Assembly (NCBI GenBank): GCA_036345935.2
Contig: JADWOT020000009.1
Span: forward strand, 4,731,381-4,795,380
DNA: 64,000 nt
Direction of reading: 5' to 3'
Source of the DNA: Taenia hydatigena
Lineage: Eukaryota; Platyhelminthes; Cestoda; Cyclophyllidea; Taeniidae
Below, in pieces: positions 9,288-21,088 of this stretch. A program made the translations under genes and the position numbers. The notes beneath the pieces were generated by a model that was not told the DNA's origin, did no database searches, and saw only the letters and a list, made by a program, of their open reading frames with translations. How positions within the stretch are numbered: the stretch's first letter is position 1; every line of letters begins with the position of its first letter.

Positions 9288-9635
9288 TGTAGCGTCCCGA
9301 GGCTCCCTTGAGGCAAAAGAGGGCAGAAGGTAAAGGGAAATGAGCTGCTGGCGTGGCTTGAAGGCCATTCTACGCAGCTGGGGCAATATGATTACCTCTA
9401 TGACCCTGACAGGAACCTGTATTTCAAGCAAGCAAAGTTGTAGTACTTTGTTTGTTAGAACTGGTGGTTTCTGTCAAGGACACAGAGGTGGCCGTGTTGC
9501 CATAGCAGCGCGGGCTGGCCTCTAAGCCATGCCAGCAGCCTTTTACCCTCTGTCCGGTGAATATATATATTCTACCCTTGCATTCCGCCTTCTTTTGCCT
9601 TCAAGGGAGCCTCGGGACGCTACAAAAGTATTATA
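9288..9635 (-). mobile_element. Solo LTR of the TRIM family, interrupted by a second LTR
   Basis: Read on the minus strand, this LTR ends in CGCTACA at 9288. Its start is disrupted near 9630-9635, where ATTATA replaces the usual ACTACA on the plus strand. The body is split by the plus-strand LTR at 9439-9624. The flanking pentamers AAGCT (9283-9287) and AAGCC (9636-9640) match at four of five positions, as expected for an old 5-bp target-site duplication. The copy lacks the TATA-containing segment found in its relatives. Confidence 0.75.
9439..9624 (+). mobile_element. Solo LTR (186 bp) of the TRIM family, inserted in another LTR
   Basis: The element starts TGTAGTACTTTG and ends GGGACGCTACA, so it has the TG...CA termini of an LTR. 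It is flanked by an exact 5-bp duplication, AAAGT, at 9434-9438 and 9625-9629. It contains a TATA-like ATATATATAT stretch in its 3' third. It sits six bases from the end of an older copy in the opposite orientation, so the two together form an inverted repeat with arms of about 150 bp. Confidence 0.88.
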
Positions 9636-9640
9636 AAGCC

Positions 9641-10987
9641 ATCTTATGTTGTGTAAGCTGTAAACTGTCAGGTTTTCATTAAAAAATGATTTTCGCCCTT
9701 ACTTTTGGGATCAATATCATTTTCTCAGCCAGAAAGGTAGTGAACTTTGACGTCTTATTATTAATAAATTATATTCAAACAGTCATGAGTTATTTGCTTG
9801 GTTAACTCTCATTTTCGATAACGGACCACTTAGCAGCTCCAAACTGAAGCCTCTGCCGCGCGGTTTGGACTCCAAACCATGTTAGTAGTCCTAACTTTTT
9901 CCGCTTCCTAATCGAATACTTTGCCTTCCTACGTCTCCTGGATTGAAAGTAAACTTGGTCTGCAATGGCAACGTAACTAAAGAAATACACATGCTGTGAA
10001 TAAGAAAATCGGTGACGGGTCATAGCTGAAAGGCTAAAAATATTGTCCACCTTTTCTATAAGTCCATTTTTGTGCCGTGGAGGATAGCTGCAAACAACAG
10101 GAGCGACTCGTGTCGTGATTTGTCTGGCGAATTTTCAATGCGAAATTGCTTACCTTGCTTATATGGAGACCTCAAATATGGTTGGGCAGCTATGAGGTGA
10201 TATTGACTTGAAGACGGTGAAAAGTAGCAAAACCATACGTCTACGGAACTGTAACCAGTCTCGTCCCGCATTACGCAAAATCAAATTTGGGCTAGCGTAC
10301 CTATGACTGGCTTTGGACAGGCATGGTGATAAGCATAGCACTTGCCCTAAACGCAGTTTTCATGCAGAAAAAAATGCTAAAATTTATAGAATTACCAGGA
10401 CAGATCAGTAGCTTTGCTTTCAGGTAATTCTTCATTTGTATGGAAATTCGATAACTGACAAAATTAACTCCTGGATAGTACCTATCGCCACGGATTCAAT
10501 TGTACTGACTGATGCGGAAGGAGAGCATCAAAGACAGTTTTTAAAAGAGGAGGGGGGTTATGCAATAGTTCAAATGTTTGCTTAACTCGCGATTTTGGCA
10601 GAGAAATTTCTCTGCGTCTTCGAAACTTTATCTCGGCTGGGCGGCTCGGACATTAGCCTATAGCATTTGACCCAATCTCTTCCATGGGTCAGGAAAAACT
10701 CGAGCTGCTACGGAAGTACATGTACCCTATGGCGATAGAGTGATGTGTCGAATACGTACAAATCGAAAGAAATGGCAGATGATCGTTAGAAACCACCATA
10801 ACTACCAGCAAATGCCTGGTTTTGAAATTAACTTTCAAATGTGACCGCAATTTAGCCCTCAAATTAATTCACCTTCATATAAATGTTCAAAAAACACTCA
10901 GCTACTTAAGGAAAACAAAGCTTAAGTCCAGAAGAAGATTCAGCATCTCTTAGCGGTCATTTGCCATACTAGCACCGTAGCATCCTG
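9641..10987. other. Intergenic DNA between LTR copies, nothing recognised
   Basis: The open frames here are short, lie on both strands and show no family match. I see no RNA gene and no further LTR copy. Confidence 0.4.
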
Positions 10988-11114
10988 TGTAATAATTTGT
11001 TTCATCTGACTGCCGGTTTCGGTTTCGATCGTCCGGGTAAGAATATGGTCCCATCAGCGTGGACTGGCCTCTGGGCCATTCCCGCCCTTTATTGAATCTA
11101 TATTTTGCCCTAGT

Positions 11115-11294
11115 TGTAGCGTCCCAAGACTTTTTCAAAGGCAAAAGAAGGCAGAATGTTAGGGTAAAATACATATATTCAACGGAGAGAGAAATAAACC
11201 GATGGCATGGCCCGATAGCCAGCCCACGCAGCTAGGGCAGTACGGGCACCTCTGTGACCTCGACCGAAACCGGTAGTTCCAGCAGAGTACTACA
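11115..11294 (-). repeat. 3' LTR of the TRIM element
   Basis: This is a 180-bp terminal repeat. On the minus strand it begins TGTAGTACTCTG and ends ACGCTACA. It carries a TATA-like ATATATGTATTTT and is preceded, on that strand, by a purine-rich tract. Confidence 0.88.
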
Positions 11295-11819
11295 TTGCCC
11301 CTCTCCTCTTTCGAGCGTCGTCCACGACGCACCCCTCGCTACACCTCCCGCGTCAGCCATCACAACATGCTCAGTGCTGCAACAAGCACCCACCAGCTAA
11401 CCATGCCACTCGCCAACATTCGACGCGATTGAGGCAATGCTTCACACCAACGTCAGTCATCCCTCTTGGCAATGCATTGGACTTATAGTTTCGTTTGGCT
11501 TGGGAACAAAGTTCAAAATGAGTGGTTCTGCCGACCATCAGTATGTCCGTAGGGAGGCGTTAGCACGCCGATCTCCTTAAGAAAGAATATTGGTGGTAAT
11601 CTTTGGAACGATACTTTCCAGGTGGTCCATGGCTAGTGTCGTCTCAGTTGTTGATGGCTTTCTTGTAGAACACGGAGAAGGTGTAGATGCCGGAGGTGGA
11701 CGTGGTTCGTGGCCCATCCGCAGCACATGCACTTCTTTCGCACCGCTGCAACATGCCACAGGCGGTAGAGATCGGGATGAAAACCCTATAGAGTCGGGTC
11801 CGCTTTCCGCTGCCATCAA

Positions 11820-12001
11820 TGTAGCGTTCCAAGACTTCCTCAAAGGCAAACGAAGACAGAATGTTAGGGTAAAATACATATATTCAACGGAGAGAGAGAA
11901 ATAAACTGGTGGCATGGCCCGATAGCCAGCCCACGCAGCTAGGGCAGTACGGCCACCTCTGTGACCTTGACCGAAACCGGTAGTTCCAGCAGAGTACTAC
12001 A
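11820..12001 (-). repeat. 5' LTR of the TRIM element
   Basis: This 182-bp terminal repeat is closely similar to the copy at 11115-11294. On the minus strand it begins TGTAGTACTCTG and contains the TATA-like segment that probably drives transcription of the element. It ends ACGCTACA next to the candidate primer-binding site. Confidence 0.88.
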
Positions 12002-12075
12002 CTAGTATTATGCCTTTTTTGCCTTCAAAGAAGTTTCGGAACGCTACATATATATTTTCCTTAAGTATCACATCA

Positions 12076-12107
12076 TTTCGCCTTCATGGGAGTCACCGAA
12101 CGCCACA
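12076..12107 (+). repeat. Short terminal remnant of a TRIM-family LTR
   Basis: The segment resembles the last 30 bases of the family LTR: CGCCTTCATGGGAGTC followed by ACGCCACA, against the consensus TGCCTTCAAGGGAGCC and ACGCTACA. No left portion is visible. Confidence 0.5.
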
Positions 12108-12325
12108 ATCGTGCTTACTAGTTTCCATTCCAAAGTGATCAAGACGACTTTTGGCATCAGGGTGGATTGAGGTGGCGAATAATACCTTGCTGATATGCCG
12201 ATATCAACTAAGGCTAGGTTATTGTACAGAGGCTGTTTTCCAATTGACATTAAATATACGTACATATGTGCACAAGAATGTAAAAGATTCCGTTTTAGGT
12301 AACATTTTGTTATTGAACTCAGCAC

Positions 12326-12473
12326 TGTAGCGCGCCGAGGCTTTCTTGGAGTAAAAAAAGGCATAATATTAGAGAAGAATGCATATGTTCAGCAAACAGA
12401 GTGATCAAGGTTACTGGCAATATGGCCAGTTAAGTGAAAGTAACCAAAACCAGCAATCAAACAAAGTATTGCA
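12326..12473 (-). mobile_element. Degenerate solo LTR of the TRIM family
   Basis: On the plus strand it begins TGTAGCGCGCCGAGGC and ends CAAAGTATTGCA, matching the reversed LTR ends with substitutions and internal loss. The flanking pentamers AGCAC (12321-12325) and AGCAT (12474-12478) match at four of five positions. Confidence 0.75.
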
Positions 12474-12964
12474 AGCATACTTGCGGTACGGTATACTAAC
12501 GTTAATTTTACAGTCTAATAACTTATTGTCTGCTGCTTTTAACACAATTCTTCGGATATTGCTAAGTGACAAGCTAGATTTAAAAGATAGTGGATTCAAA
12601 ACAGTCAACTTTTATGCAACTTCTACGGGTCCATGAATTTGCAAATTCCGAATTATGAATGCAAGAGTAAATTTTCAGTGAATGAACTGGTTGACTTCAT
12701 GGTTTGTTTAACCGTGTGGGCGATATAGGCTCTTCGTAGTGTATAGTTAGAGGAGGCTAACGAACACGTATCTCGCTAAGGGTCTGACGTTATGGCCTCC
12801 GAAAAAGGAAGCGTAATCTGCACACATTTGGACTGCGACATTTGTACCTCTATTTTAAGGCTGCTCAAGAAGGCAGCTTTTTGTCTCGTCTTCTCGTTCT
12901 ACAAATGTGAAGGCATAGTTAAAAGAAGGAAACGCCAAGTCAATTACAATTGCCATTACACTTT

Positions 12965-13250
12965 AGGATATGATGTTTGGGCCAAGCTGGTGGCTAGTGG
13001 GTGCCTCTTGCAGCACTGATTACGTTGTGATGGCTGACATGGGAGATCTTCCAAGAGCAGAGGGGCAATGTAATACTTTGTTTGGACTGCCGGTTTTGAT
13101 CATGATCACAGAGGCAGCCATATTGCTCTGGCCGCGTAGGCTGGCCTCTGAGCCATGCCAGCAGCTCATTTCTCTCTGTCTCTTAAATATGTACAATCTG
13201 CCCTGATATTTTGCCTTCATTTGCCCTCAAGGGAGCCTTGGGACGCTACA
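12965..13250 (+). mobile_element. 5'-truncated TRIM: end of interior plus 3' LTR
   Basis: The stretch from about 12965 to 13068 aligns with the last part of the interior of the element at 11115-12001, including shared TTGCAGCACTGA and GTTGTGATGGCTGAC words and the purine tract AAGAGCAGAGGGG. The LTR follows, from TGTAATACTTTG at 13069 to GGGACGCTACA at 13250. The 5' part is missing or too diverged to recognise, and no target-site duplication is visible. Confidence 0.75.
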
Positions 13251-13415
13251 TTTTAACCCCTATTTGCTGTTCAGCACTATTGGAACTGCCTAGAAAGCTG
13301 CAATTATTAAAAGAAAGATCATAATATTAACGATAACATTCATCAAGTACAAAGTAACAATTTCGTTCAATAAATCTGTATAACTAATGCTTTAACGCAG
13401 GCGTAGATCTTGGAT

Positions 13416-13605
13416 TGTAGCGTCCAGGGACTCCCACTTAAGGCAAAGGAAGGCAAAGTACTAGGGCAGAACACACATATAATCAATTGACGGAGCCGAT
13501 GGGGCTGCCGCAATGGACCGGAGGCCAGGCCACGCAGCTCAGAGCGATACGGCCACCTCAGTGACACTGACCGAAACTGGCAGTCCAAGCAAACACATCA
13601 TTGCA
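13416..13605 (-). mobile_element. Solo LTR of the TRIM family
   Basis: On the plus strand it begins TGTAGCGTCCAGGGAC and ends CACATCATTGCA. It contains the CCACCTCAGTGACACTGACC block shared with other copies. The flanking pentamers TGGAT (13411-13415) and TAGAT (13606-13610) match at four of five positions. It ends about 260 bp upstream of the MIPEP-like start codon, so it lies in that gene's promoter region. Confidence 0.82.
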
Positions 13606-13868
13606 TAGATGGCTTGAAAAATTATTTGTTGGCAAAAAATTTTTGTTTATCTTGATATGTTAACGCATTCAGATGCATTTTTCTTTGGATGGGCTCTTTG
13701 TATTACTGGCCTAACACACCATGAATCACCTGTTTTATCTTAACCCTTTGCCTTTAAATAGTGCAAAACTGCCACCAGTGTCAAGTTCTTAATTAAATTT
13801 GCAGTGAATTTACTCGCAGCCTTTTGCAAATTGTTTAGCTCTACTGTTTCTGTAGCGGCTTTGATAAA

Positions 13869-16800
13869 ATGCTCCGCTCGTTGTCTCGCTGCCGTTGTTT
13901 CTTTGGCTTTAACCGTTGTATACGCGGTGCCTTTACGTCTGATCCACTGACAGAGTCAAAGGGGCAATTCTACTATGTGATTCCCGAAATACCTTGTGAT
14001 AACTTATTGAACAATCCACTGATGCAACGTGCGACTCTACCCAGGTTGATTCAATGCGCTTTATAACTTTTAGGCTGGATGATATAAAGGCAGACCAGAT
14101 ATTTACGGGGATATCAAAGCAGATAATTGAATACCAAGTTGCCCTGTCTCAGCTCGCCGAGGAAATTAAGTCGAACAGTATTCCAATCACCTATGAGAAT
14201 ATTGTGTCAAGGATAGACGAAATTATTTTTCCTGCCCAAAGTTCTCTTCAACTTGTCGAGAGCCTCAGCGCCACCAACAATGATCCTGCGTGGCGTCTTG
14301 TAGTTAGTCGTTTGGCTACTAAGTTCTTACGAGCCCAAAGTGAGCATCTGTATAGCAATGCTGAAATCTATGGTGCCTTACATAAGGTCCTCCTTCAGTT
14401 GGATCCACAGGACAAACTCAGAAGAGGTACATTTGCTACTTTATAATGGAGTCGGCAAATTCTGTATACAATACGCCAATTAGTCTGCGACATCAAGTTC
14501 TCTCCTAATGAACTAATTATTGCGTAATAGTTTCGAACTCCTTCTGATACTAGTTTTCACTCATTACGGGAGCACTCTTTTAGCTTGCAGTCCTGCTACC
14601 ACAGTTGTTCGTCACTTTTCTTCGTGTCTTCCATTATCCTTGTAGGAGTAGTTGAGCAACTGCTGGCCGAAGGCTGGTCCAACGGGGCAGCTCTCGCTTC
14701 CGCTGCTGCGGGTAGGATTGAATCATGTAACTCCTGTGGTACTCCCCACTTCCCACATAAGGACGGGAAGGATAGTTGCAGAAAATCTCTTAGCCAACTC
14801 TCCTATCTTCGCTCTGAGCTGATAAAGGCGGAAAACATGTTTGAACAGATGGTCACCAATAGTGCCTACGTTAGTGCTCCCGAAACTATCAGCCAGGCTT
14901 CAATCACTGGTCGTTACGACAATGCTAGACGAATTGGTGCACAGTTGCCCAGCTACCTCAATAACGTGCTTATTCCAAATTCGTCTGGGTACATACCGGT
15001 CTCGGAGTCCGACCTTTCTTCCTCTGCTCCCTATTGGTTTCCCTACGCACTGGGCGGGAAGCAGGAGGGTGGCTACTTTAAGGACATGCGGGTTAATCTG
15101 GGCATTGATAAATCCGCTAGCATGTTCCTCTGCCATTGTAGTAATAGAGAGGTAAGATTTGTCAGTTCTTTTCAATTGCACAGATGTTTTTTGTGATTTT
15201 CGATAATTACTCTCCTCCAGGTTTTTTGGAATATTTGTAATTGTATCACTGAATTTTTATTCTTAGCGTTTAAAGGTAAGGCTGTCTTGGTCCTCTCGCT
15301 TGGTCACATAATCACATATGACCACTAGAATTTTTTTCCGTCGCATCCGAGCATTGTTTCAATCAGCTGCCTCAGTATGACAATTTGAAGGATTGATCTT
15401 ATGTTACCACGGCTGTAGCCATTGTCGGAGGTTCTGTTTTGCCAATTACTGCTTTTTATCCACGAACTGCGGCCACCCTATTGGTAGTTCGCGCTTCGTG
15501 TTTTTACCTGTTATTGGCAAGCAAGGCGATCTAGTTTAGGCATCTACTAAGAACTCAAATGTTTTATCTTTTTTGGGCCCAGAGCGTGCAAACGCTGACG
15601 TTATTTGCTCCCCATTTTCCTCTGCACTCAGTTGCGGCAGGTGGTGTGGCAGGCGCTGGTGCAGCGAGCAAGTCAGCGCACCTTTGGTGGCTCTTCGGGT
15701 CAGCACGCCTCCAACGATGGTCGGATCGAGCAATTGCGGCGTCTGCGCGCCCAAGTTGCTTCAACCATGGGCGCGCCCGATTGGCTCTCCCTCGTATGGC
15801 GCCGCACTGCCGCTAGTGGCCGCGGGCCCTCCAGTCCCGATACCCTTGTCGACAAGGTCCTCGAACCAATTCGCAAAAAACTTTTTCCTCTCGGTAAAAT
15901 CGAGTGGCGCATCCTCAATGAATGGGCTGAGCCCCATCTGCGCATCTCTCGTAAGCTATTTGGTTGGGATCGCTCCTCTTATTCTGTTTCTCCACATTTG
16001 AATCACGATGGGGTTCTGAGATAACTGGCATTTTGAATGTATACCATTAATGAAAATTTGTGCAAGACTGTTTTCTATATTTGGACTGGGACTTTTCTCG
16101 CATATAATAGCATAATCAATTATTCTCATAAAAAACCCTTTGGTTGCAAACCTTTTCGGCTTATGATTGTACGGTGGTGGCTGAGGACCTGTTTTTTTGT
16201 CGTAACTGTTGTGTATTTTACTGTCAGAAAATACTGTATTCTTAAATCTTTTGGATATTTTGATCAAATTTAACAGTAATTTTCGTTACACTTATATTAT
16301 TAACTTAATAAATTTAATGTATTCACCAAACTTACAAGCACACTTCATCTGTCTGTTAGTTTTTCCTGATGGATTAAAAAGCGGTAGAAACTATGTCGGG
16401 TAACATTTTCGTGACGAATATCCTCAACCTGCTTAATATAGCTAGCCTGGAACATTACGACATTGCGTACGCGATAGAGCAGTACAATTTCACGATGTCT
16501 TTGGCGCCGGGATCAAGTCTGTCGACGGACCCTCGGTACAGGCGCGTTCTTCCTTTCGAGGCAAGCATTGACCGCATCTTCGGGCGTCTCGGTGACTTAT
16601 TCGGCCTCAAAGTTGTAAGATTGCCGACGGGTGTGGGTCACGCGACCCGCCTTGGCATTACTGACAGTATCTTATATGAAGTTGTCGACGCCGGTGAAAA
16701 GGGAGTCAAACTCGGTGAAATTCTGGTTGATCTCAATTCCAAGTAGGTGGCATTGCCTTTGTTTGGAAATTAAACTATGCGCGTGGTTTTTCCACCTTAC

Positions 16801-18880
16801 CAGTCGCTAAAACAGCTGACAGTAGAGAATCCTGGTTTGCTGATGGTGACTTGGTAGCTCTCATTTTCAAAATCGACTTCACGACATCAAGAAAGCGATT
16901 GGGCGCGAGCGGGATGGCACTTAAAATAATCCTATAATTTCGTTAGACAATCATGCATTAACCGCGTCAATATTTCCAGTCGAAATGCAGATACGTATGG
17001 CTTAATGACTGTTTACTTGCTGAAGGTAATTTTGTGCAATTGGGTCTTTTCGGTGTCATTGAATTGGTATGATATCATTATCATCGGAAAGTCAACATGG
17101 CTAAGCAGCAAATCTAATTCCGCTGTCAGTGGAACAAGAATTCGCAGTGCTGCACTTTTGTTCCTCTTTCAATAGTTGTGCTCTATCGTGCATCACTATA
17201 TTCCGCAAATCGTGTTAAATTTGCTCCAAACTACTAGATTTCACAAAGTTTTTGTAATCGAGAGCCATTTTTCACCTTCCTATATCACATCGTGTGCATA
17301 TCGCATTGCGCTTCGCCAGTTGCAGTGTCGACTCATTGTTGTGATGTCATTTATTATCTCTTTGACACAGGCATCATTTCGGCGCGGCGTCCTTCGGTAA
17401 CGTGACGCCTGTGCCTCTAGTGACTCGCTTTCCAGTGCCTTCTAAGTCGCCTTCTCACGTTGCCGCTGAGGTTTCCATTGCCTGCATGTTCGGTAATCTC
17501 CCCCCTGACGCTATTCGTATCGGTCTCTCAGAGATAGTACGTGCTTGCTTTGCATTCCCTGCCACAATCGCTCCAAGACTTGAACATCGGCTTCTCAAAT
17601 GATAAATGCCTCAAAGACTGAACCACTTATGTTGTGTTCAATTCTAAGCAGTACCTTCGACTGTAAAGCGCCTGCGTCACATATTGTTTGCATACTGTCG
17701 CATTTTTGTGTATTTATTACTGTTCATTTGGCTGCGAAATCATCCGTGATGCTAACCATTGCCCTTGATTTAGGCTTTTATTTCTAATTATCTCCCATGC
17801 GTTTGGTCTCTTTGTGGATTATGTATTCATGTAGGAGGCGCTGGATATCGCGTCAGCATTCGGCAGATGCCTGCAGCACGTCGTCAGCCGCACACCCTCC
17901 TACACCTTTACGGGTCTAACCACGCCGATGCCGGGTGCGAGCTTCGCCGGCTCTACCGGGGGCACCCCTGTTAGGGACAACTCCTTCCTAACTCAGGACC
18001 TCATCAAGCTCCTTCTTATTCACTCCGGGCCCATGCGCCAAGCCATCTTCGGAGATGCTCTTGGTGATTCCGAGACTAATTGCGTCGTTGTCAACCCCGC
18101 ACATGGTTGGTCTGCTTAGCCTATCACTAAACTCACCTTTAAAAATTAATCTTTTTCTTAGGCTGTTATCGTTTCTTAAATCAATTTAAATCCACCAAGA
18201 TCCGTCATTTTAACTCAATCTGATTCACTTCTCGATTCTGCTCAACAGGTGCATATTTCTGAAAGCGCTGTGCCTTGCTGTTATTCTTTTAGGCATAAGC
18301 CGAGTGATGGCATTGCCGTTCCTACGTACTCTATATGAATCGCGATTCGACCTTGAGTTGTGGGCGGCGGGTCGGTCAGCGTGGAAGACGTGGCATGCCC
18401 TTTCGGAGTCGTTATGGATGCAGCATATGCCATACGCATACCACCCTGATGATCAGTGGGCTTGTTCCGCTTTGGGTATTTTCGGATCCCGCGGTATTCC
18501 TGGCATGCGCTACTTCGAAGTTTGGCGTCAGGTCATCGCTCTTGATTGTCTCTCCGCCTTCACTGAGGCTGGCTTCGAGAAACAGTGGGATGCACAGCAG
18601 GTTTAGACTCTTCTCTTTGTTTCAACCAGTCAGTCACTATGTGGTCGCTTTTAATGCTTCTGCTTGTTCGTATTAGGTTAAGGATCTGTTTACCCGATAC
18701 AGGAAAACGGTTCTTGATCCAGGAACGGCACTTTCTTGTCGTAGCACTTTCCAAGCCTTCAGGGGTCGCGATCCCTTGCCAGACGCTCTCCTGAAAACCT
18801 TCGATGTCTCGCATAAATTGCTGCGGCGATCTGCTCTTTCTTCCAATCCGGTTTCTCCCGAAGCCATTGCGACGCTATAG
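13869..18880 (+). CDS. MIPEP: Mitochondrial intermediate peptidase-like M3 protein with a destroyed zinc site, 9 exons, about 867 aa
   Basis: Active family members are mitochondrial zinc peptidases that remove octapeptides from imported precursors. Exons by eye, phases consistent: 13869-14044, 14074-14426, 14646-15151, 15632-15950, 16442-16742, 17371-17536, 17835-18105, 18293-18600 and 18677-18880. The N-terminus is Arg-rich and acid-free (MLRSLSRCRCFFGFNRC), fitting a mitochondrial presequence. M3 similarity runs throughout: an oligopeptidase-A-like LNNPLMQRATLPRLDDIK start, LRQVVWQALVQRAS in exon 4, HYDIAYAIEQY in exon 5 and LFTRYRKTVLDPG in exon 9. The catalytic HExGH that should lie in exon 7 reads SAFGR (residues 614-618), inside an otherwise aligned context ending RT...TG; the downstream Glu ligand block is also absent. 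The open frame looks intact, so this is probably a pseudoenzyme and not a pseudogene. It is longer than human MIPEP (713 aa). AATAAA follows at 18970. Confidence 0.82.
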
Positions 18881-18969
18881 ATCAGATGCGCCTTGATTTC
18901 TTGCTTTACCCGCCCGGCCCTTCTATCAATTACAGTTATGCCCTACCTTTTACTCTTTGTACTTTATTG

Positions 18970-18975
18970 AATAAA
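18970..18975 (+). terminator. Polyadenylation signal of the MIPEP-like gene
   Basis: A canonical AATAAA lies 90 bases after the TAG stop at 18878-18880. Confidence 0.55.
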
Positions 18976-19391
18976 GCAATGGGATTATATCACTCCTTTG
19001 TGCGCAATTTCTGCCTTTTTCGTACTGTTGTTGTTTTCCACTGCTTAAGTGCAGATATGAAAGGTTTTGACATGATTTTGCCCGAAATTCGCTTTCTCTG
19101 TGTTTTTTAACACCCGTTGTTCCTGATTGCTTGTGTAATAGAGCATATGTCGCTCATAATCAATCGTACTGATCAAAAAGGCGTCGATTTTCTTTGTAAG
19201 ACCGTCCACACTGGCATTTATAGTGCTAGAAACGCTGCTCTCAGACTGCTTATTTATTCGTTGTTGAATTAGGGACTCTGCCCTATCAACACTGTTCCTT
19301 TCTGCCACTATAGACGCCTTGTTTCTGAAGGTGCTATTAGGTTTGCAATGGTAATCGAAGACATTGGTCGTGGTGAAGCGTCACTGTTCCA

Positions 19392-21088
19392 ATGGCTCAC
19401 ACTGGACTCCCTCTTCTTGTTGTCTCAGTGCTTGACGCGATGTTACCCTCGCCGCGATGTTTGGGCTTAGCGCTGGAGTGGTCCTGTCATGGAGTGCCAT
19501 GGTTCATCTTCTCTGGAGGATGGATCCTCGGCCTGCTCATCAGTAGCATGGCCCCACCACCTTCCGCAGGCCCTGCTTCTGATCCCTACGTGGCGCCGCG
19601 AAGCGCACGCAACCTCTACGGATGGCGCGCCGCCTGTCTCCTTTTCGCCCTCGTCCTCGACGTTCTCGTTGTTGGCTGCCTGAAGTTCATCGTTAAGCGA
19701 CCTCGCCCCGAGGCCAACTACTCCTCCGATATGCTGCTCACCGTCTCCATTGACGATTGGTCTTTCCCCTCTGGTGAGTCTTGAGAGAAATCGCCTAACA
19801 CCCTATTTGCATAAACTTGTTTCAAAATTTGTTTCATGGACTTGATTTGAAATGATCCCACCTTTGTCACCAGAAATGCTGCTAATTCACCAGCTTCAAA
19901 AAATGCCGAAACTGTTCCCCTTGATGTATGCTTTTTTAAAGCTGTATTATAATATCAAATTTCCTCTTTTGAATGCAATGGTTCGAGATTCCTCTTAAAC
20001 TTTTTATGAACCCACTGACCCGACTCTCAGTATTACTTCTTCCGTTCGGTTTCACATCGTCCCTCCACCTTCACTCGTTAATACGCTCACATCTCTGTGC
20101 TCCTTGGTGGATAAACTTTTAGCATCATCCGTCATCGCAGTTTTTGTTAAAAGTTCTGCGCAACGATTGTGCGAACTGGTGCATTCTACACGTTTGCTAA
20201 CTTGTTTCCCCGAAGTAGCCTTCTCTGGCTTCTAAATCGATCTAATTCCATTTACGTTCCCACTCTTACTCGGGATCATTGAATTCAAAAGTGAGCTCGG
20301 TGCTATAAAACTCTCTCACTTGCACTTTAATCTGCAGCCTTTATTGACTTTGCAGTTATAGCATCTTGGCCCACACCGCCTCTCCACCTTCGAGCGAGTT
20401 GTTTACTTAATCGGCATATTATGCTAATTGACACACCACTTGTTTGGACTCCCTAATGCGCTTCACTTTTTGTAGGGAAGTCGCACAAGTTTATGGTATT
20501 CCTTTTACCCAGTCTATTTTGCTAGATTTTCTTTTTAGCATATTCGTCGTGAATTGCTGATAAATGGATCCCTTTTTAATGCACTTTTTGCAACTTATCA
20601 AAGTCGAAGTTCCTTTGTATTAAATTGCCTGATGGTACTTTAAGTACTCCTGCTTGCGTCGGCTGTTCCTGGTTGTGAGCATGCTTGTTTAACCATACAA
20701 GTGGGGAGTGTGCTTGTCGATTTGTAACCAATGTGATTATAATGTACTATGAGTTTGAAGCCTAAAACACTGGATAGTGTATCGCAGTCATTAACGTCTT
20801 CCTCATGCGGAACGAACGGGAGGCAATGCGTGACCCGTACCTATGCACTTGCCAGGTCACTCGAGCCGAGCGGCAATGTTGCAGTGGTTGTTGCCGTGGC
20901 TTTTCAACCTCTCGGGTTTTTCGCGGCTCCTCATCTCCGTGTGGACAGTTTCGGTGTGCGTCTCGCGTCTTGTCATGCGACGCCACCACCTCGAGGACAT
21001 CTTCTTCGGCTACGCCTTGGGCTTCTGCCTCTACTACCTCGTCACGTGGTGTATCGACTGGCCCTACTGGTTCCGCTTCCTTGGCTGA
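19392..21088 (+). CDS. PLPP6: PLPP6-like polyisoprenoid diphosphate/phosphate phosphohydrolase, 2 exons, about 204 aa
   Basis: PAP2-superfamily membrane enzymes of the PLPP6 (PPAPDC2) type dephosphorylate presqualene, farnesyl and geranylgeranyl diphosphates in the ER membrane. Exons are 19392-19773 and 20856-21088, joined in phase 1. All three PAP2 signature motifs are present: C1 as KFIVKRPRP (K98 to P106), C2 as PSGH (126-129), and C3 as SR with five residues before His171 and then three before Asp175 (SRLVMRRHHLED). Hydrophobic segments alternate with these motifs. The SFPSGHSSRAA and LEWSCHGVPW stretches favour PLPP6 over the lipid phosphate phosphatases. The protein is shorter than human PLPP6 because it lacks the long N-terminal cytosolic region. 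An in-frame stop at 19374-19376 closes the frame just upstream, although a further 5' exon cannot be excluded. Confidence 0.85.

Follow-up and report, generated by a model that had tools for sequence, protein, structure and literature searches.

The window analysed here, 64,000 nucleotides of contig JADWOT020000009.1 of the tapeworm Taenia hydatigena (positions 4,731,381 to 4,795,380 of the forward strand), contains a nine-exon gene (window 13869-18880, +) for a member of peptidase family M3, with a product of 867 residues that is very probably catalytically dead and lacks peptidase activity, as judged from its sequence. We consider it likely that this product is a conserved pseudo-oligopeptidase, namely an M3 protein of the oligopeptidase A (OpdA) and organellar oligopeptidase (OOP) lineage in which the zinc site disappeared, along with the majority of the substrate-loop residues, before the tapeworm orders Cyclophyllidea and Diphyllobothriidea split, and which has since been kept by selection. 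The gene very probably serves some purpose other than cutting peptides, one that, as far as we found, has not been studied.

A preliminary description of this DNA had reported that the zinc motif HExGH is replaced by SAFGR, and the replacement was found just as described, at window 17853-17867 (+; residues 614-618, a numbering that applies equally to the window protein and P0001, which align without gaps). It lies in exon 7 (17835-18105, +), which encodes EALDIASAFGRCLQHVVSRTPSY and comprises the former catalytic helix and the third-ligand block. When seven tapeworm proteins and 33 OpdA-type proteins were aligned (bacterial loci contributed 29 of the latter and protein searches four), the His, Glu and His of the motif were present in 33/33 OpdA-type rows but in 0/7 tapeworm rows, which carry Ser or Ala, Ala or Gly, and Arg, Asn or Thr in these columns, with the Phe and Gly between them invariant. 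The third-ligand Glu was Glu in all 33 OpdA-type rows and Thr in all seven tapeworm rows, and, independently of the alignment, residues 609-686 of the window protein contain no Glu at all. The block that supplies this ligand had been described as missing; its Glu is indeed gone, but the block itself is replaced and carries a four-residue insertion, with PMPGASFAGST opposite a sequence like G-VEWDAVELPSQ in OpdA-type proteins.

The losses extend to the substrate loop, which reads HIFxGGYAAGYYSY in active enzymes and whose His and Tyr residues have roles in substrate binding, as worked out for thimet oligopeptidase and neurolysin. In exon 8 (18293-18600, +), which encodes the former loop, IFGSRGIPGMRYFEVWRQ replaces HIFAGGYAAGYYSYKWAE; across the tapeworms the His has become Gly or Ser, one Tyr Ile or Val, another Arg and another Glu, with Tyr 771 retained. 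The tapeworm RYxExWRQ stands where active enzymes read YYSYKWAE, which places new residues at the former active-site positions 770 (Tyr to Arg), 773 (Tyr to Glu) and 777 (Glu to Gln). None of the features of an active M3 enzyme (HExGH with its general base, the third-ligand Glu, and the His and Tyr residues of the loop) was found intact.

An artefact of splicing or assembly that conceals a normal HExGH exon might be proposed, as the exons were modelled by computation and an acceptor was revised, that of exon 5 (16442-16742, +), which was set at 16442 instead of 16388 by comparison with the SPSLEHYD of the orthologues; the first model, before this change, had 885 amino acids. However, a scan of window 13801-19000 in all six frames, which is blind to motifs split by splicing, showed no HExxH, and the hidden exon was rejected on that result. 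The motif is also absent from all eight deposited tapeworm proteins that cover the region, and the substrate-loop residues of exon 8 are lost as well, so that we regard the artefact as extremely improbable. The earlier statement that all nine exons are open with consistent phases held: the introns have GT donors and AG acceptors, the frame is open over 867 codons, and the product is equal in length to the Echinococcus multilocularis protein. Exon 1 (13869-14044, +) provides the start codon, a basic presequence-like N-terminus and an oligopeptidase A-like start (NPL...LPR), and exon 2 (14074-14426, +) the N-terminal helical part. Exon 3 (14646-15151, +) encodes a tapeworm insert in which C-x-S-C-x3-H-F-P is invariant at residues 204-213, together with another stretch, GYIPVSESDL..., which is mostly without a counterpart in the OpdA-type rows. 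Exon 4 (15632-15950, +) follows, exon 6 (17371-17536, +) encodes the stretch ahead of the former catalytic helix, and exon 9 (18677-18880, +) contains FRGRDP and the stop codon. The GC content was 0.526 in the exons and 0.385 in the introns.

The first model, used as query in a protein search that scored just the 7992 candidates with the most words in common, returned eight proteins, all of them from tapeworms (Echinococcus, Hydatigera, Anoplocephala, Mesocestoides, Hymenolepis, Schistocephalus and two Spirometra entries). A profile search added a Dibothriocephalus protein and two other M3 proteins, and a region search yielded two further M3 proteins; these four non-tapeworm proteins comprise one named planctomycete, one named 'oligopeptidase A' and two without names. 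An alignment of tapeworm orthologues had been suggested in the preliminary description. The site is covered by eight of the nine database tapeworm proteins (not by P0008), and together with the window protein all nine rows lack HExGH, the variants being SAFGR, SAFGN, AAFGN, AAFGT and AGFGT. The genera concerned belong to the Cyclophyllidea and the Diphyllobothriidea, and the absence of the motif from all nine rows would therefore date its loss before the split of these two orders. Two entries of this set stood out: P0006 (Schistocephalus solidus) bears the mismatched UniRef name 'Rab-GAP TBC domain-containing protein', although Peptidase_M3 is the sole Pfam hit of its sequence at E 0.1, and the deposited model of P0004 (Mesocestoides corti) is without most of the exon 6 equivalent, perhaps through a gene-model error or an alternative donor.

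No fluke protein was among the matches of the three protein searches, of which two scored no more than the roughly 8000 candidates with the most shared words and the third had 95, so that absence from flukes is not established. In the literature, a thimet oligopeptidase is mentioned for Schistosoma mansoni vesicles (as M03; PMC5818524) and for Fasciola eggs (PMC9209485), and a protease survey of T. solium lists a MIP in family M3, with inactive homologues excluded (PMC4070553); passages of papers on S. japonicum (PMC4183426) and M. corti (PMC13248251) contain nothing on M3.

The gene shows several signs of maintenance. The window and E. multilocularis proteins differ at 95 of 867 residues without a single gap, and the 83 changes reachable by a single nucleotide had a mean BLOSUM62 score of +0.18, as against −0.53 (standard deviation 0.18, maximum 0.17) for random missense changes in 5000 simulations. 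Relative to Hydatigera, 94 of 815 residues differ, 84 of them single-nucleotide-reachable, with a mean score of +0.30 and a simulation maximum of 0.20. Pairwise identity between tapeworms was 53-70% (86-88% in two close pairs), and residues 608-660, the former active site, showed a mean pairwise identity of 0.73 versus 0.61 overall in six species, at the 93.5th percentile of windows of equal length. At 54 columns that are near-invariant in the OpdA-type rows, the tapeworms keep 25 residues and lose 29; the losses cluster in residues 540-782 (27/38 versus 2/16 elsewhere; Fisher p 9e-5, and 1e-3 and 4e-4 at looser thresholds), a range that was picked post hoc. At 33 positions at least 90% of the OpdA-type rows agree and the tapeworm rows present (five or more) share another residue. 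A search of the genome with P0001 gave nine matches, all at the window locus. The open frame, the conservative changes, the single copy found and the above-average conservation of the dead site therefore argue for a maintained pseudopeptidase and not a decaying gene. Read from these alignments, most of the scaffold persists, whereas the chemistry is lost and the site that took its place has hardly changed since; with its catalytic residues lost and its gene conserved, the protein is, on this sequence evidence, a pseudopeptidase.

An oligopeptidase that is dispensable in parasites and drifting towards loss would also have shed its catalytic residues. Several database models are truncated or missing pieces (P0002 and P0004-P0009), and weakly conserved stretches exist (identity 0.43 in residues 661-697, 0.52 in exon 6 and 0.32 in the C-terminal tail), which also weigh against the conserved pseudo-oligopeptidase that we favour. 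Such a dying gene is nevertheless very unlikely: the frame of 867 codons is open, with stops in the genome-search matches lying where these enter introns, there is no insertion or deletion relative to Echinococcus, and the substitutions are about four standard deviations more conservative than random. The identities between tapeworms and the above-average conservation of the pseudo-active site speak against it as well, and of the near-invariant columns that lie beyond the active-site half, 14 of 16 are retained.

A second M3 gene with an HExGH motif, which the preliminary description had proposed to look for, was found on contig C9 at about 2253500-2255850 (-; L004), about 2.5 Mb from the window. 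It encodes HEWGH and the Glu block, as well as TDLAELPSTLMEHF, and by its likeness to the human enzyme we take it to be MIPEP, the mitochondrial intermediate peptidase. Three of its four frames scanned were above the Pfam M3 cut-off and one was below. All three matches of a genome search with PF01432 fell in this HEWGH gene, the search missing the window gene's own exons, and searches with P0011 and P0013 gave three matches, all weak (E 0.08 to 0.42). A second copy of the window gene or an active OpdA/TOP-type paralogue was sought and rejected on these genome searches, which gave only the window locus and the HEWGH gene; a divergent copy could escape them. The HEWGH gene is possibly the sole M3 gene of the genome with an intact zinc motif, as far as sequence searches can tell.

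Membership of the window protein in family M3 was borne out by a PF01432 match of 66.5 bits (cut-off 27; E 3.8e-18) over residues 338-861 of the 885-residue first model, and the same profile scored above the cut-off in 6/6 orthologues scanned. Within the family, the preliminary description had aligned the exon residue for residue with the catalytic helix of MIPEP; a place in the MIPEP subfamily is probably wrong, as OpdA-type sequences resemble the C-terminal core far more than the HEWGH gene does. A search of sequences of solved structures placed oligopeptidase A proteins first (4put, E 7.8e-14), with neurolysin and thimet oligopeptidase well behind, and the tapeworm profile gave 46-47 bits with oligopeptidase A chains, 19-24 with neurolysin and 14.7 with thimet oligopeptidase. 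The 33 OpdA-type rows, combined into a profile, matched the window protein in three stretches with a score of 125 bits (E 2e-35 for a set as large as the PDB). This profile also matched pieces of the HEWGH gene, at 33 bits or less, which is to be expected of members of the same family. When segments of equal length were compared, 33/33 OpdA-type rows outscored the MIPEP-like segment in the YYSY helix for 7/7 tapeworm proteins (medians 49-61 versus 20-30), and in the RGRDP segment 33/33 were ahead for 6/7, with 26/33 for P0005, which is without that end; this comparison has one MIPEP-like comparator and rests on segment scores rather than on a tree. In 6/7 comparisons with the tapeworm proteins, the YYSY-helix segment of the HEWGH gene did not outscore shuffled versions of itself, and both of its C-terminal segments matched them less well than the OpdA-type segments did. 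MIPEP paralogy was rejected, because the C-terminal segments are nearer to the OpdA-type rows than to the MIPEP-like gene and the FHExGH motif is absent, and the gene probably belongs, by these comparisons, to the oligopeptidase A/organellar oligopeptidase lineage. With MIPEP/Oct1 the tapeworm protein shares family M3 and possibly the compartment.

The best matches in the structure set were OOP (PDB 4ka7 and 4ka8), Arabidopsis TOP2 (4put) and bacterial oligopeptidase A. The tapeworm protein has in common with these an N-terminal start of the NPLL...LPxF type and FRGR[DE]P near the C-terminus; unlike them, it is without the zinc ligands and the general base, has the loop His and all but one Tyr replaced, and carries tapeworm-only inserts, with 18-23% identity in the alignment. 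The NCBIfam equivalog for oligopeptidase A, NF008159, was the best NCBIfam model for both P0001 (38.4 bits) and P0006 (29.6 bits) and its cut-off of 927 bits was not reached; P0011, in which HEFGH is present, was likewise below it (830.9 bits). Some comparisons do not bear on the assignment. MIPEP was not among the solved-structure matches, so that the structure search alone does not decide the subfamily, and five upstream segments did not clearly separate OpdA-type from MIPEP-like sequences by Smith-Waterman comparison. The tapeworm profile had no match in the HEWGH-gene fragments, which is no evidence of subfamily because length-matched OpdA-type pieces score no better there. The fold prediction, which concerns the helical clam-shell of M3, depends on bacterial sequences, and a structure model from tapeworm sequences only was of no use.

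The preliminary description had called the product a maintained mitochondrial pseudo-peptidase; the dead and maintained M3 homologue stands, and a mitochondrial location is suggested by a basic N-terminus. The net charge of residues 1-22 was +3 to +6 in 6/6 sequences that have that end, and in four of the six no internal stretch of that length was equally basic; the helical moment exceeded that of shuffles at the 0.05 level in 1/6. This composition suggests that mitochondria are the favoured compartment. OOP is an organelle enzyme of plant mitochondria and chloroplasts, and many of its relatives are cytosolic (PMC9291397).

The Cys, Cys and His of the C-x-S-C-x3-H-F-P insert were invariant in 9/9 tapeworm rows, opposite gaps in 33/33 OpdA-type rows, and the stretch of residues 204-214 holds a further His in 8/9 rows. 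These residues could form a metal (zinc) or redox site, a candidate that we regard as a lead. A new enzyme that uses the old cleft or this insert with a different metal or chemistry would fit the invariant insert and the 33 positions fixed to new residues, several of them in the former active site. No known catalytic signature was present, however, and the insert lies in a stretch of lower confidence (mean predicted local distance difference test score, pLDDT, of 57 for residues 201-210) that is less conserved than average (identity 0.50 over residues 201-225), and we think a neo-enzyme improbable. A broader proposal, which we put forward tentatively and hold to be rather doubtful, is a mitochondrial M3 shell neofunctionalised in the tapeworm lineage, in which the cleft would have been rebuilt by Arg, Glu and Gln that became fixed where Tyr and Glu had stood, and in which the Cys-Cys-His insert may bind metal, the protein having acquired a new ligand or partner and being important to tapeworms, with no counterpart in the host.

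The conserved pseudo-oligopeptidase would be carried to mitochondria by its basic N-terminus and would retain the M3 shell despite the lost chemistry, working by binding: it may hold peptides, for example released presequences, without cutting them, and the new invariant residues at the former active site, such as RYxExWRQ, may constitute the binding surface. Alternatively, another mitochondrial protein might dock on the rebuilt cleft. One form of this explanation, in which the protein would serve another mitochondrial peptidase or complex (e.g., MIPEP or the presequence-degrading machinery) as a structural or regulatory subunit instead of binding free peptides, appears plausible to us, though on balance less than probable. 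The presence of the HEWGH M3 gene in the same genome is in its favour, but no partner is known, and M3 peptidases are usually monomeric. Precedents for such a subunit, according to a 2024 review of metallopseudopeptidases, are the inactive alpha subunit of the mitochondrial processing peptidase and the core proteins of complex III (PMC11266112). The alpha subunit, of family M16, is comparable in principle with the tapeworm protein, but it belongs to another family and its partner is known. The same review presents Ebp1 and Tma108 as proteins whose old site is thought to be used for binding nascent chains, and Gone early (M13) and the FtsHi proteins (M41) as pseudopeptidases that likewise have substitutions at all or nearly all key positions (PMC11266112). 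Unlike the tapeworm protein, the latter two are of other families and are membrane or membrane-complex proteins.

The tables of this review name pseudopeptidases in M1, M12, M13, M14, M15, M16, M24 and M41, and no pseudopeptidase of M3 appears in them or in its section on 'other families' (PMC11266112); none was described among the open-licence literature matches listed. The tapeworm proteins are already deposited, and no remark on their inactivity was found among the same matches. The E. multilocularis entry is named 'oligopeptidase', which implies an activity that is very probably lacking. The dead M3 gene is common to tapeworms of two orders, and no other gene of oligopeptidase A type was found in the genome. 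If our interpretation is true, it offers a natural experiment on an M3 shell without catalysis and warns those who survey helminth proteases or screen for inhibitors not to count the tapeworm protein among the peptidases.

The M3-like gene is adjoined by a PAP2-superfamily phosphatase gene (window 19377-21088, +), in which PF01569 was matched in two exon frames with 27.9 and 38.4 bits (cut-off 27.2). The motifs typical of this superfamily are readable in it, and the neighbourhood is therefore not decaying. On the other side of the M3-like gene, a dispersed repeat, at most about 185 bases long, occurs in both orientations within window 9331-13595, with copies near 9451-9624, 11106-11294, 11811-12001, 13069-13252 and 13541-13591, the listed pairs being mostly 65-96% alike. 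Translated stretches resembling this repeat were also observed at the HEWGH gene locus.
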